Source of the DNA: Aestuariivirga sp.
GTDB taxonomy: Bacteria; Pseudomonadota; Alphaproteobacteria; Rhizobiales; Aestuariivirgaceae
Direction of reading: 5' to 3'
Assembly: GCF_020252395.1 (NCBI RefSeq)
Contig: NZ_JADCDB010000002.1
Location: forward strand, 124,001-188,000
Length of the DNA: 64,000 nt
Position numbers and translations under genes: made by a program. This document shows, piece after piece, positions 55,067-59,779 of the stretch. The notes under the pieces are model-generated. The model was not told the origin of the DNA, did not search any database, and saw only the letters and a list, made by a program, of their open reading frames with translations. Numbering within the stretch: the first letter of the stretch is position 1; each line of letters opens with the position of its first letter.

Positions 55067-56791
55067 TTAGACATCCGCGTAGCACATGGTCTCCGCGCCG
55101 CCGCCGGGGTGGGTGACGGCGCCATTGACGGCGGGGCCGACCTGTTGGGCGTATTTCCAGATGGCGCCGGAATTATAGCCATGGGGATGCGGGGCCCATG
55201 ATTTGCGGCGTGCGGCGAATTCCGCCTCGCTGACGTTGCAGGAGAGGGTGCCTTCGACGGCATCGATGGTGATGATGTCACCGTCCTTGAGCAACCCGAT
55301 CGGGCCGCCGAGCTGCGCCTCGGGGCCGACATGGCCGATGCAGAAGCCGCGCGTGGCGCCGGAGAAACGTCCATCTGTGATGAGCGCCACCTTGTCGCCC
55401 ATGCCCTGGCCATAGAGCGCTGCGGTGGTGGACAGCATTTCGCGCATGCCGGGGCCGCCGCGCGGGCCCTCGTAGCGGATGACCAGCACCTCGCCTTCCT
55501 TGTACTGCTTCTTGGAGACGGCCTCGAAACAGGCTTCCTCGTTGTCGAAGCAGCGGGCGGGGCCGGAGAACTTGAGGTTCTTCATGCCCGCCACCTTCAC
55601 GATGGCGCCTTCGGGGGCGAGGTTGCCTTTGAGGCCCACGACGCCGCCCGTGGCGGTGAAGGGATTGTTGGCAGGGCGGATTACGTCCTGGTCCGGGTTC
55701 CACTTCACGCTCGCCATGTTCTCGGCCATGGTGCGGCCTGTGACCGTCAGGCAGTCGCCATGGAGGAAGCCGTGGTCGAGCAGCGTCTTCATGAGGAGCG
55801 GGATGCCGCCCACCTCGAAGAGGTCCTTCGCCACGTAGCGGCCGCCGGGCTTCAAGTCGGCGATATAGGGTGTGCGCTTGAATATCTCGGCGACGTCGAA
55901 AAGGTCGAACGTGATGCCAGCCTCATGCGCCATGGCGGGAAGATGGAGCGCGGCATTGGTGGAGCCGCCGGAGGCTGCGACGACGGTTGCGGCATTCTCC
56001 AGCGCCTTGCGGGTAACGATGTCGCGCGGGCGGATGTTCTTGGCGATCAGCTCCATCACCTTTTCACCCGCGGTGAAGCAGAAGGTGTCGCGGATCTCGT
56101 AGGGCGCGGGTGCGCCGCAGGAATAGGGCAATGCGAGGCCGATCGCCTCCGCCACGGTGGCCATGGTGTTCGCCGTGAACTGCGCGCCGCATGAGCCGGC
56201 GGAGGGGCAGGCCTTCTGCTCGAGTTCCAGAAGGTCCTCGTCCGACATGGCGCCGACGGAATGCTTGCCCACCGCCTCGAACACGTCCTGCACGGTGACG
56301 GGGCGGCCCTTGAAGGTGCCGGGCAGGATGGAGCCGCCATAGATGAAGACCGAGGGCACGTTGAGGCGAAGCATGGCCATCATCATGCCGGGCAGCGACT
56401 TGTCGCAGCCGGCGAGGCCGACGAGCGCATCATAGCAATGGCCGCGCATGGTGAGCTCGACCGAATCCGCGATCGCCTCGCGCGAAACGAGCGACGCCTT
56501 CATGCCCTGGTGGCCCATGGCGATGCCGTCCGTCACGGTGATGGTGCAGAACTCGCGCGGGGTACCGTGGGCGGCGGAAACGCCCTTCTTCACGGCTTGC
56601 GCCTGGCGCATCAGCGCGATGTTGCAGGGGGCGGCCTCGTTCCAGCAGGAGGCGACGCCGATGAAGGGCTGGGCGATCTGCTCCGGCGTCATGCCCATGG
56701 CGTAATAATAGGACCGGTGCGGCGCACGCGACGGTCCGACGGAGACGTGGCGGCTGGGCAGTTTGGATTTGTCGAAGGTGGGTTTGTCCAA
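55067..56791 (-). CDS. ilvD: Dihydroxy-acid dehydratase
   Basis: 574 residues from ATG 56791. It dehydrates 2,3-dihydroxy acids in valine, leucine and isoleucine synthesis. Fe-S cysteines lie in [26 protein letters not shown] and [16 protein letters not shown], with [14 protein letters not shown] near the C terminus. Length is normal (about 560-615). The IS1595-type transposon is inserted 30 bp upstream of the start codon, so the native promoter may be displaced. Confidence 0.96.
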
Positions 56792-56852
56792 AGGTCGTTC
56801 CTCCCGTAAGCCGCACGATCATAAGGCAAGGGGATTATCCCCTTGACGCAAG

Positions 56853-57473
56853 TTACACGAAAGACTGTTGAAGCGAAAGAATTGGCTTGATCCGGCGCAG
56901 CATGACCGCTGCCCTTACGTCGGCGTTTCCAGCCATTCCGTCTGTGTAATCTTCAAGTCTCAATAGAGACAGCGACTTGCTTTCTGGGTCCAACTCATCA
57001 CTGTCGGATTTCCCGTCATCAAACGTAAGGAACTCCAAATCCTTTACGCCGACTACTTCCTTTACCCATATGGCCGACGCAATATGAATGGCGTCTCCCA
57101 ATGTCATTTGCCGAGCCTTTTCGCCAGCCTGAGAATTTGGCCGACACCATTTCAAATCCCGCAGTCTGGCCACTCTCATCATTGTTGCAAAGTCTGGCGT
57201 AACAACGGTGGCAACAGAACGAATGTAAGCCCCAAGATCATCGACCGATTCAAACTTCCCAGGCACAAAATTTGATGGGCGCAACTCCGCCAGAAGCACT
57301 GAGCTAATCCATATATTGCGCTTCTTGCCAGGGCCGACAGACTCGCGGAGTATCTTGTCTATGTCTTGAGCTTCGTGGCCTGAATCATCGTTGGCGTGCC
57401 GCAAGAGGACGTTGGTATCAAAGAAATGATTTAGGCTTGTGGAAAGCTTAGTCGCCAAGGTCAAATCCACCAT
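56853..57473 (-). CDS. PIN-domain ribonuclease-like protein (transposon cargo)
   Basis: 206 residues. Catalytic-acid pattern of a VapC-like PIN nuclease: FFDTNVLLR (Asp near residue 19), LLAELRP (Glu), MTLGDAIHIASA (Asp) and FLTFDDGKSD (Asp). These are expected to hold a divalent metal and cut RNA. Its start overlaps the end of the upstream partner by 26 bp. It ends 1 bp inside the left inverted repeat, so the reading frame uses the transposon tip for its last codon. It is typical of toxin genes, but no short VapB-like antitoxin is beside it. Confidence 0.8.
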   Translation of the reverse strand: MVDLTLATKLSTSLNHFFDTNVLLRHANDDSGHEAQDIDKILRESVGPGKKRNIWISSVLLAELRPSNFVPGKFESVDDLGAYIRSVATVVTPDFATMMRVARLRDLKWCRPNSQAGEKARQMTLGDAIHIASAIWVKEVVGVKDLEFLTFDDGKSDSDELDPESKSLSLLRLEDYTDGMAGNADVRAAVMLRRIKPILSLQQSFV

Positions 57474-58266
57474 AACTCTTGCCCGTGAGTGAACCCCGAA
57501 TATCTCGGAACTCCGCGGCAGCGGTCACCGTCTCAATGTCTACGACTTCGATTCTCTCGGGTAGTTGGCTATCCCCAGTATAGATCGCCCGCCCCGTAAC
57601 CGAAACTCTCTTATTGCCGTGTTTGTTGATCGCGTCTTCGCCTTTAGATTTGTCGAACACGCATTCAATCTCGATGTTGCTACCATGCAGAACGAGGTGC
57701 CCGATCCATGCCGCTCCTCGGTAATCGATATTACCGAGCCGTCCGTCAAAAGCGCCATATGCGCTGCCAGCGAAGTATTCTGGATTGCTCTTGACTTCGC
57801 CTTTAGTTTCCATGAGGCGTCGGGTTTGTCCTGAGAAGAAGGTATCGAATGGAACCTCCTCACCGTCCCAGAATTGGACAGTGATGGCATATTTGCCATC
57901 GATCTTCTTCCCGATCTCAGCAATCTTCTTCTTCAGATTTGGGTGTTCATCGGCTGCTGCGAACTCGCTGCGATAAACCGACTGGGTCGCCCGCTTGAAT
58001 ATCTCGACAGGCGTAGGACCTGTAAAATGCTGCTGGCATTCAATTAGCCCAAACTCTCCCGATCCCACACGAAGATGAGAGACAAGAAACTCTGTTGCCT
58101 TCTTCTTCCCTCGAAGGTCTTTGTCAGCCGCTTTCAGAGCCGCCAGAACCGTGTTAAACATGTCTTTGAAGACGCTGGCGGAAACAGGCTCCCCATCGCT
58201 ATCCCTAATGGCGGAGGGATGGCGTATGACAATACGAACTTCCTCTGGTTTGATCGGGTTATCCAT
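57448..58266 (-). CDS. Unknown cargo protein paired with PIN gene
   Basis: 272 residues from ATG 58266. N-terminal half helical and charged (DPKLRGKK-type basic stretch about 45-60); the C-terminal half is beta-rich, with segments GAFDGRLGNIDYRGA, ECVFDKSKGEDAINKHG and VSVTGRAIYTGDSQLPERIEV that look like an OB-like or SH3-like barrel. I recall similar C-terminal patterns in proteins encoded beside PIN genes. Overlaps the PIN gene by 26 bp. AT content is above that of the host (29 of 60 bases G or C at 57001-57060). It may be the antitoxin or a nucleic-acid-binding partner. Confidence 0.6.
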   Translation of the reverse strand: MDNPIKPEEVRIVIRHPSAIRDSDGEPVSASVFKDMFNTVLAALKAADKDLRGKKKATEFLVSHLRVGSGEFGLIECQQHFTGPTPVEIFKRATQSVYRSEFAAADEHPNLKKKIAEIGKKIDGKYAITVQFWDGEEVPFDTFFSGQTRRLMETKGEVKSNPEYFAGSAYGAFDGRLGNIDYRGAAWIGHLVLHGSNIEIECVFDKSKGEDAINKHGNKRVSVTGRAIYTGDSQLPERIEVVDIETVTAAAEFRDIRGSLTGKSYGGFDLGD

Positions 58267-58325
58267 TGGGCAACTCTTTCGAAGACTTTAACATGTATCC
58301 CGTAGCCGTAAAGAGAGGGTTATTG

Positions 58326-58529
58326 ATGACGGATTTGACCCTAAAAAGGGCAAGAGAACTGGGAAGATTGGGCGATTTCGCGTCTGAAGCGGAAGCATCT
58401 GGAATTGGACCAATCCATGCCGAAGCGTTCAACGTGGTGGTAAAGCGCGCGGTCACAGCGCCGCAATTACCAGATCAAACATCAGGTTCCCGCGCTCCCG
58501 GTGGTTCGACCGGAAAGAAAACTCGTTGA
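58326..58529 (+). CDS. Small basic protein inside transposon
   Basis: 67 residues from ATG 58326, convergent with and overlapping the transposase 3' end. The first 45 residues look like a real helical protein (RARELGRLGDFASEAEASG); the last 20 are basic and low-complexity, as often seen where coding overlaps the other strand. Comparable small frames occur in other IS1595 elements by my recollection. No function proposed. Confidence 0.35.
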   Translation: MTDLTLKRARELGRLGDFASEAEASGIGPIHAEAFNVVVKRAVTAPQLPDQTSGSRAPGGSTGKKTR

Positions 58530-59346
58530 GGTAGCGCTGCATATGCTTGGATGACACATGGATATGTGTTGACCGCACCGACGCCTTAAACAGTTTCCAG
58601 AAGCTCTCTACGGAATTGACGTGATGGGTGATGCCGGTACGCTCATCGTGGAACGCATACTCTTTCTGCCCATGCTTCACGGTTCCATGCGTGAAGCCTT
58701 CATCGGTGAGTAAGCCATAGCTCATCAGTTCATCGGTTGAGACGATAGAGCCGGGTTCAACATTGGCGGTGACAGCGGCGCGAAGCGTGGGCTTGCGAAC
58801 GTCGGGGATCACCTCAGTCTGCATCCGGCCACCACGTTCCTTCATACCCATGACAATGGTTTTGCCAGCAGCGCCACGGCCACGTTTGCCCTTGCGAGCG
58901 CCGCCCACGTAAGCCTCATCCGCTTCCACATGACCCTTGAGCATCTGGAAGCCATCCGCCTTCGCCATCAGGTCGCGGATTTGCTGGCCGATGCGCCAAG
59001 CGGTTTTGTAGGTCACGCCAAGGGTGCGCTGGAGTTCTTTGCCGCTCACGCCGTGGCGCGTGGCAATGAACAGGTAAATGGCATAGTACCAAGTCTGGAG
59101 CGGTGTGCGGCTGTCTTGAAAGATCGTTCCGGCTTGCGGATAAACGTGGTGGCCGCAATCGGCACCAGCGAACGCCTTGCGGCCTGCAATCCGATGGAAA
59201 GTCGTCTCGACGCCGCAAGATGGGCAGAAGCCCTTGAGCCCGTAGCGCTGTTCCATCAGATGCTCAAGGCAAGCATCGTCATCCGGGAAGCGCTTGAAGA
59301 AGTCGCGGACGGAGAAGTCAGGCTTGGATGAAGGGCTCTTGCTCAT
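58453..59346 (-). CDS. IS1595-family transposase
   Basis: 297 residues. N-terminal zinc ribbon CPSCGVETTFHRIAG...CGHH, then a helix-turn-helix region (YKTAWRIGQQIRDLM), then an ISXO2-type catalytic core: first Asp in HVEADEAYVGGARKG, second Asp in SIVSTDELMSYG, and the Asn/Glu/Lys part in HVNSVESFWKLFKAS. The basic linker KGKRGRGAAGK is typical. It starts 26 bp inside the right inverted repeat. With intact ends and duplication it is likely active or recently so. Confidence 0.9.
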   Translation of the reverse strand: MSKSPSSKPDFSVRDFFKRFPDDDACLEHLMEQRYGLKGFCPSCGVETTFHRIAGRKAFAGADCGHHVYPQAGTIFQDSRTPLQTWYYAIYLFIATRHGVSGKELQRTLGVTYKTAWRIGQQIRDLMAKADGFQMLKGHVEADEAYVGGARKGKRGRGAAGKTIVMGMKERGGRMQTEVIPDVRKPTLRAAVTANVEPGSIVSTDELMSYGLLTDEGFTHGTVKHGQKEYAFHDERTGITHHVNSVESFWKLFKASVRSTHIHVSSKHMQRYLNEFSFRSNHRERGNLMFDLVIAAL

Positions 59347-59403
59347 GCCCTTCTATATCCCACATCATCGTACTTGCGTCAAGGGGATAATCCCCTAAGG
59401 CAA

Positions 59404-59659: not shown

Positions 59660-59779
59660 GGCCGGTCTCCCCGTATCAGATCTCCGAGAGGCCATACGTC
59701 AGAGCACGCTGACACTTCGACCCGGGTCAAACTTCGGCATGTCACCCTCCCGCTGAAGGAGCGGGAGAGGACGTGAAGA
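59660..59779. other. Short non-coding stretch after bch relic
   Basis: 120 bp with a hairpin CCCTCCCGCT/AGCGGGAGAGG around GAAGG (59745-59768), similar in its stem to the B repeats. It faces the end of the coiled-coil gene and may act as its terminator. Confidence 0.4.

Follow-up and report, generated by a model that had tools for sequence, protein, structure and literature searches.

Insertion sequences (IS) that carry passenger genes, the so-called tIS, are already known, as several papers attest (PMC7986276, PMC12888890, PMC5704250). Two of them, tISCpe8 and MTnSag1, combine an IS1595 DDE transposase, inverted repeats and passengers between the ends, and both are described as mobilizable elements, the former carrying lincomycin resistance to judge from a title (PMC5704250). 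Here we describe an element of the same build, located at positions 56822–59403 of a 64,000-nucleotide stretch of DNA from Aestuariivirga sp. (hereafter the window; positions 124,001 to 188,000 of contig NZ_JADCDB010000002.1, assembly GCF_020252395.1). Unlike those elements, it carries as passengers two overlapping genes, one for a 272-amino-acid (aa) partner protein, BP, and the other for a PIN-domain protein, PIN. The element is a transporter-type IS1595 ("tIS") whose passengers most likely form a self-contained two-gene conflict module. It offers a concrete candidate for a PIN-based conflict system in which the partner has a predicted SSB-like OB fold and is not a classic antitoxin. It also suggests that small toxin- or defence-like cassettes can be acquired and swapped in Alphaproteobacteria by IS1595 elements, which are mostly listed as plain insertion sequences.

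Pairs of a PIN toxin and a small DNA-binding antitoxin are already known, and where bacteria have a PIN protein in a two-gene operon it is in most cases a VapC-type toxin. In VapBC modules the antitoxin is typically about 70–100 aa long and has a DNA-binding domain (RHH, AbrB, PHD and similar), and the usual order is antitoxin gene first and toxin gene second. Antitoxins that accompany PIN genes were also predicted by Makarova in 2009, where, as here, a PIN gene is paired with a conserved neighbour; the partners named in the available part of that paper are RHH, AbrB, PHD, COG2442, COG2886, COG2880, COG1753, COG2856, MerR and a few others (PMC2701414). None of these is described there as a large OB-fold protein, and they are set apart from BP by this description, not by sequence. 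In the available portions of the open-licence papers searched, no description of a BP-PIN pair was found.

A complete IS1595 element with two passengers

The ends of the element are exact. An 8-bp target-site duplication, TAAGGCAA, lies on the left at 56822–56829 and matches its right copy at 59396–59403 in every base, and the 24-bp terminal inverted repeats within it (left, 56830–56853, forward strand; right, 59372–59395, reverse strand) are identical at 24/24 positions. A duplication of 8 bp is the typical length for the IS1595 family. When the same end scan was run on 20 base-shuffled copies of the 8-kb stretch around the element, the best repeat identity accompanied by an exact 8-bp duplication was 11–14/24. 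Both inverted repeats start with a near-palindrome, GGGGATTATCCCC (56830–56842 and 59383–59395).

The gene at 58453–59346 on the reverse strand encodes a 297-aa IS1595-family DDE transposase with a zinc ribbon, recognised by Pfam (DDE_Tnp_IS1595 PF12762, 2.3e-40; zinc ribbon PF12760, 1.4e-8) and by NCBIfam (transpos_IS1595 NF033547, 5.3e-60). The passengers are encoded on the same strand, BP by an open reading frame at 57448–58266 and PIN, a protein of 206 aa, at 56853–57473; the two frames overlap by 26 nt, and the PIN stop codon directly adjoins the left inverted repeat. With its zinc-ribbon transposase, its repeats and duplication and its passengers inside the ends, the element, about 2.6 kb in all, belongs to the IS1595-family tIS. 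An earlier first-pass annotation, made by a model from the letters alone, had called it a complete IS1595-type transposon with exact ends, and this description was borne out.

Insertion at this site is directly supported, since a relative of the same genus that is without the element (L048) matches the two flanks, once joined, in an unbroken 576-bp alignment at 90%, and two others (L049 and L050) also align past the junction (base 530), reaching bases 551 and 552. In the remaining four of the seven relatives compared, the flank match stops before the junction. As far as such alignments go, the empty site in relatives is a sign of past movement only. The full element occurs as a single copy in its own 3.49-Mb genome.

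BP and PIN as a module

Loci related to the pair were collected by searches from BP and from PIN, and one more (L036) was recognised in a stretch fetched from the window's own genome. After merging of duplicates (L037 with L012, L040 with L017, L042 with L014) there were 24 distinct loci, namely the window, L005, L011, L012, L013, L014, L017, L018, L022, L023, L033, L034, L035, L036, L038, L039, L041, L043, L044, L045, L046, L106, L107 and L108, and profiles were trained on 21 of them, with L106, L107 and L108 outside the training set. The PIN gene lies downstream of BP on the same strand in all 24; at L033 the contig end falls inside BP. A reverse search from PIN, in 199 genomes, returned 19 PIN matches. 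Upstream of each of the 11 best (E up to 5.2e-8) lies a BP gene; the eight weaker ones are without BP and resemble generic PINs. Moreover, the pairwise identities of BP and PIN co-diverge closely (Mantel r=0.88, p=1e-4, 21 loci), and those of BP fall to about 11% between loci.

Judged by these relatives, BP and PIN are a genuine two-gene module, as the first-pass annotation had supposed, and co-occurrence across genomes, on which it had let its proposal of a toxin–antitoxin or defence module depend, was found. The strict pairing over such divergent loci would also supply natural variants for mapping the part of BP that controls PIN. The window genome itself holds three divergent pairs. The second, L022, lies on contig C9:20072-21377 (L022:7073-8378) and is without a transposase. 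The third, L036 (contig C12:35593-38187; L036:3594-6188), has a BP of another type and sits inside a complete IS1595 element with ends matching at 21/24 and the duplication CCGAGGAG; a small frame of 62 aa lies on its 3′ side.

In its layout the pair resembles VapBC, with two overlapping genes of which the second encodes a candidate PIN toxin that has four conserved acidic residues. It differs in that the place of a small DNA-binding antitoxin is taken by a protein of 272 aa for which an OB fold is predicted, and in that the 206-aa PIN protein of the window falls below the Pfam cut-off. Membership in VapBC was rejected, and the pair is not filed there, because BP does not have the known make-up of a small DNA-binding antitoxin. 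The annotation, too, had held that the pair does not look like the usual VapBC, giving as reasons the large partner and the second position of the PIN gene; the first reason stands, BP having no recognised DNA-binding domain, and the second falls away, since antitoxin first and toxin second is the usual order.

Predicted features of the two proteins

The window PIN matches the Pfam PIN domain with E=0.002 and 19.2 bits, under the cut-off of 23.6, and the PINs of L022 and L018 exceed that cut-off. Its acidic residues D19, E63, D127 and D152 are kept in 21/21 loci checked, a set that left out L106, L107 and L108. A PDB profile search with 20 PIN sequences gave nothing significant, the best match being the VapC 7by2 (E=0.37).

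For BP, the predicted layout comprises an N-terminal alpha/beta region (about residues 1–160), a predicted C-terminal OB-fold domain (167–252) and a low-confidence tail (250–272). In the predicted structure the C-terminal half forms an SSB-like five-strand OB barrel, and over residues 167–252 this fold is akin to that of SSB and PriB proteins, at 7–20% identity among the 50 matches listed. BP is unlike those proteins in that its putative OB domain is fused to the N-terminal region and its gene is paired with a nuclease gene. Such a large OB partner is an unusual feature of the module.

In Pfam and NCBIfam nothing above the cut-off was found for BP or PIN of the window, the best Pfam hit of BP being Endonuclea_NS_2 (E=0.24). 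PADLOC-DB 2.0.0, whose library dates from 2023, gave no match at E<=0.01 for BP and PIN of L014 or for the PINs of L017, L018, L022 and L036. In PHROGs the window BP found no match, and ten BPs scanned there touched three families, with one member matched each (E 0.06–0.08). Profiles built from 8 sequences had no match in the PDB, and a PDB search with 22 BP sequences found nothing significant, the best being a nitrogenase chain (E=0.35). The window BP had no match in phage GenBank records; the plasmid search returned one record only, from Roseomonas marmotae, and none with the L018 BP as query. Single-sequence scans, of genome contigs with the window BP and of viral contigs with the L017 BP, likewise met no relative, and with an alignment (A5) as query the same scans gave 10 relatives in genome contigs and 1 in viral ones. 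The search of the cargo with hidden Markov models and structure tools that had been proposed in the annotation thus yielded a predicted OB fold for BP, while Pfam and NCBIfam gave nothing above their cut-offs and PADLOC nothing at all for the two window proteins.

IS1595 as a carrier and the exchange of cargo

The co-occurrence with other IS1595 elements that the annotation had asked about is seen, for an IS1595 transposase adjoins the pair in 12 of the 24 loci (the window, L005, L011, L012, L017, L023, L034, L036, L044, L045, L046 and L106). Some of these transposases are defective: at L011 only the last residues remain before the contig end, the L017 frame is broken, that of L023 is interrupted by another IS, and L034 has a fragment. 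Clean ends, with inverted repeats matching at 20–24/24 and exact 8-bp duplications, were found in seven loci, namely the window, L005 (a Roseomonas marmotae plasmid), L017 (an uncultured alphaproteobacterium), L036 (the window's own genome), L044 (a Rhodospirillales metagenome-assembled genome, MAG), L045 (an uncultured Rhizobiaceae) and L046 (Sphingomonas changbaiensis). The duplicate loci L012/L037 have inverted repeats, GGCGATATTATAC, with an imperfect duplication, no clean ends were found for L023, L034 and L106, and L011 runs off the end of its contig. Among the loci without a transposase, the same kind of scan found no inverted-repeat pair above 16/24.

IS1595 transposases are uncommon in the order, any at all being present in 48 of 150 genomes, and the window genome has two, each adjoining a BP-PIN pair. 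When 30 IS1595 loci (three of them short) were fetched from these 150 genomes, the window locus alone had BP or PIN no further than about 1.5 kb from the transposase domain, and BP-PIN is therefore one cargo among several; the transposases of G000 (its second), G106, G014 and G117 are outside those 30 and adjoin the pair in other searches.

The cargo does not simply follow its carrier. Compared with L044 and L046, the window element shares 67–68% identity in the transposase but only 22–26% in BP and 26–27% in PIN; in those two loci pair and transposase are convergent, in the window codirectional. Between L044 and L046 themselves, transposase, BP and PIN are 66, 62 and 60% identical. A sister element in the same genus (genome G1018, L085:3901-6309) has the transposase type and the small frame of the window element, ends that resemble those of the window (21 and 20/24) and the duplication CACGCTCT. 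Its two cargo genes, however, are different ones, encoding 249 and 185 aa, and PADLOC gave no more than a weak match for them (PDC-M24B, 0.007). From these identities and layouts, read without a tree, the simplest reading is that at least two separate acquisitions took place within the window-type lineage, and most likely the module has been captured more than once by IS1595 elements.

This evidence also bears on a different idea, that BP (through an OB fold binding single-stranded DNA) and PIN might regulate or aid transposition, or its RNA level. The 12 loci next to IS1595 transposases, in codirectional and convergent layouts, and a weak correlation of transposase with PIN identities (r=0.37, p=0.027) would fit such a helper role. 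Against it, the other 12 loci are without an IS1595 transposase, only one of the 30 fetched IS1595 loci carries the pair, and BP does not track the transposase (r=0.11, p=0.22; both correlations cover nine of the 12 loci that have a transposase, and in two of the nine it is partial). We consider a role in transposition highly improbable.

Genomic neighbourhoods and proposed function

Outside IS1595 elements, the pair keeps varied company. In a Hyphomicrobiales MAG (L014/L042) it adjoins HamA and HamB of the Hachiman system and a gene with weak SIR2/AbiH matches, and in Acidisphaera (L038) it lies between a DNA methylase with an SNF2 helicase and ShosT; the look into defence islands that the annotation had recommended thus turned up known defence genes at two of the 12 transposase-free loci. 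At L108 the pair stands amid tail and virion genes on an IMG/VR contig; less telling is L041, which has a phage-type integrase nearby. The PADLOC runs covered some of the neighbours at the transposase-free loci other than L013, L018, L022, L035 and L108. Three candidates were too weak to be counted as defence neighbours: a methylase fragment at L039 (3e-4), a Cas2 match at L107 (2e-5), and a PDC-M28B match (7e-9) at L043, by a ParA-like protein.

Considering that related pairs occur in similar transposons, and two beside virus-defence genes, the pair looks like a mobile toxin or defence cassette. We infer its toxicity and its role in defence, and think it probable that it is a toxin–antitoxin or abortive-infection module, with the OB protein as regulator or sensor and PIN as an RNase. 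In such a module BP would bind the PIN RNase and hold it silent and, by means of its SSB-like OB domain, might sense or bind nucleic acid, be it single-stranded DNA or RNA. Loss of BP, or its engagement by, for example, a phage nucleic acid or phage protein, would then be the trigger, and the released PIN would cut cellular or phage RNA so that growth stops. The outcome would be abortive infection, and conceivably cells could also be made dependent on keeping the module; the annotation, too, had suggested that the cargo might keep the element in the population.

A number of observations weigh against this proposal. The module is rare, and no strong addiction advantage is therefore evident: the BP profile finds it in 8 genomes out of 297 in the order, to which the PIN search adds two, and in 2 out of 398 in the phylum, and with BP as a single query protein it was found in 3 out of 385 in the class, the own genome being included in each of the three BP counts. 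Clear known defence neighbours are limited to the two transposase-free loci above, and other copies have ordinary settings, L022 between presumed glgB- and glgC-like genes, L013 near a presumed leuD-like gene and L043 beside a penicillin-binding protein. Pfam finds in BP none of the usual antitoxin DNA-binding domains, and PADLOC-DB matches neither window protein at E<=1. The BP structure model is of middling confidence (pLDDT 71.6, pTM 0.49), and a common OB fold, here a predicted one, demonstrates no function by itself. Adjacency to a transposase says less in the host of L017 (G593), because there are 18 IS1595 matches there, and the weak transposase–PIN correlation argues against full independence of cargo and carrier.

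The ordinary settings just named could indicate instead an RNA-processing or stress-response pair with no part in conflict, carried along by chance. The patchy presence in the order, the three divergent copies in one genome and the association with transposons, with a phage-like contig and with two defence neighbourhoods speak against this, and we hold it to be quite improbable. In another arrangement, the OB protein would bind foreign or damaged single-stranded nucleic acid and recruit or activate PIN, which alone would be non-toxic. The predicted SSB-like fold, the strict pairing and co-divergence, and some of the defence and phage contexts accord with a two-component targeted nuclease of this sort. 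However, the overlapping order of BP and then PIN suits an antitoxin–toxin operon equally, the PIN proteins of two-gene operons are, as noted above, mostly toxins, and neither a target nor a guide is known; a targeted nuclease seems unlikely to us, if less so than a pair without a conflict role.

Beyond the toxin–antitoxin or abortive-infection reading, one may tentatively, and with more doubt than confidence, envisage an undescribed immune module, in which an OB-fold nucleic-acid sensor controls a PIN RNase and which IS1595 transposons, as minimal mobile carriers, have captured several times. If this were true, small conflict modules would be swapped between IS1595 carriers in much the way that resistance cassettes are swapped by integrons. 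A single carrier lineage would then be seen in three cargo states, represented by the window element, by the convergent L044 and L046, and by L085, the sister from the same genus.

Other features of the element and its surroundings

A small frame of 67 aa at 58326–58529 on the forward strand, on which the annotation is silent, is divergent from BP and antisense to the 3′ end of the transposase gene. It recurs at 53% identity in two other elements, L044 and L085, and may belong to the backbone of this subgroup of IS1595.

Further IS1595 elements of the same order with defined ends (L057, L062, L066, L070, L076, L078 and L083) also contain cargo-like frames. The cargo of L070 includes a proteasome-like protein (Pfam 1e-5), and in that of L078 an RxxxxH stretch like that of HEPN proteins can be made out by eye, L083 looking similar; the cargo of the latter two has no Pfam match over cut-off and no PADLOC support.

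Beside the element, at 55067–56791 on the reverse strand, lies a gene with a TTG start that is, judging by its sequence, ilvD-like (dihydroxy-acid dehydratase). The duplication starts 30 bp upstream of this TTG, and the GGAGG ribosome site of the gene was left intact by the insertion (window 56790–56822). The genes of the element are oriented towards the ilvD-like gene, and the insertion may therefore have altered its expression. A scan for promoters and terminators gave one promoter-like and one terminator-like site, with no excess over shuffled sequences. Finally, a 27-base stretch at window 59747–59773 is a dispersed short repeat, found in several places in the same genome and in other genomes of the genus.

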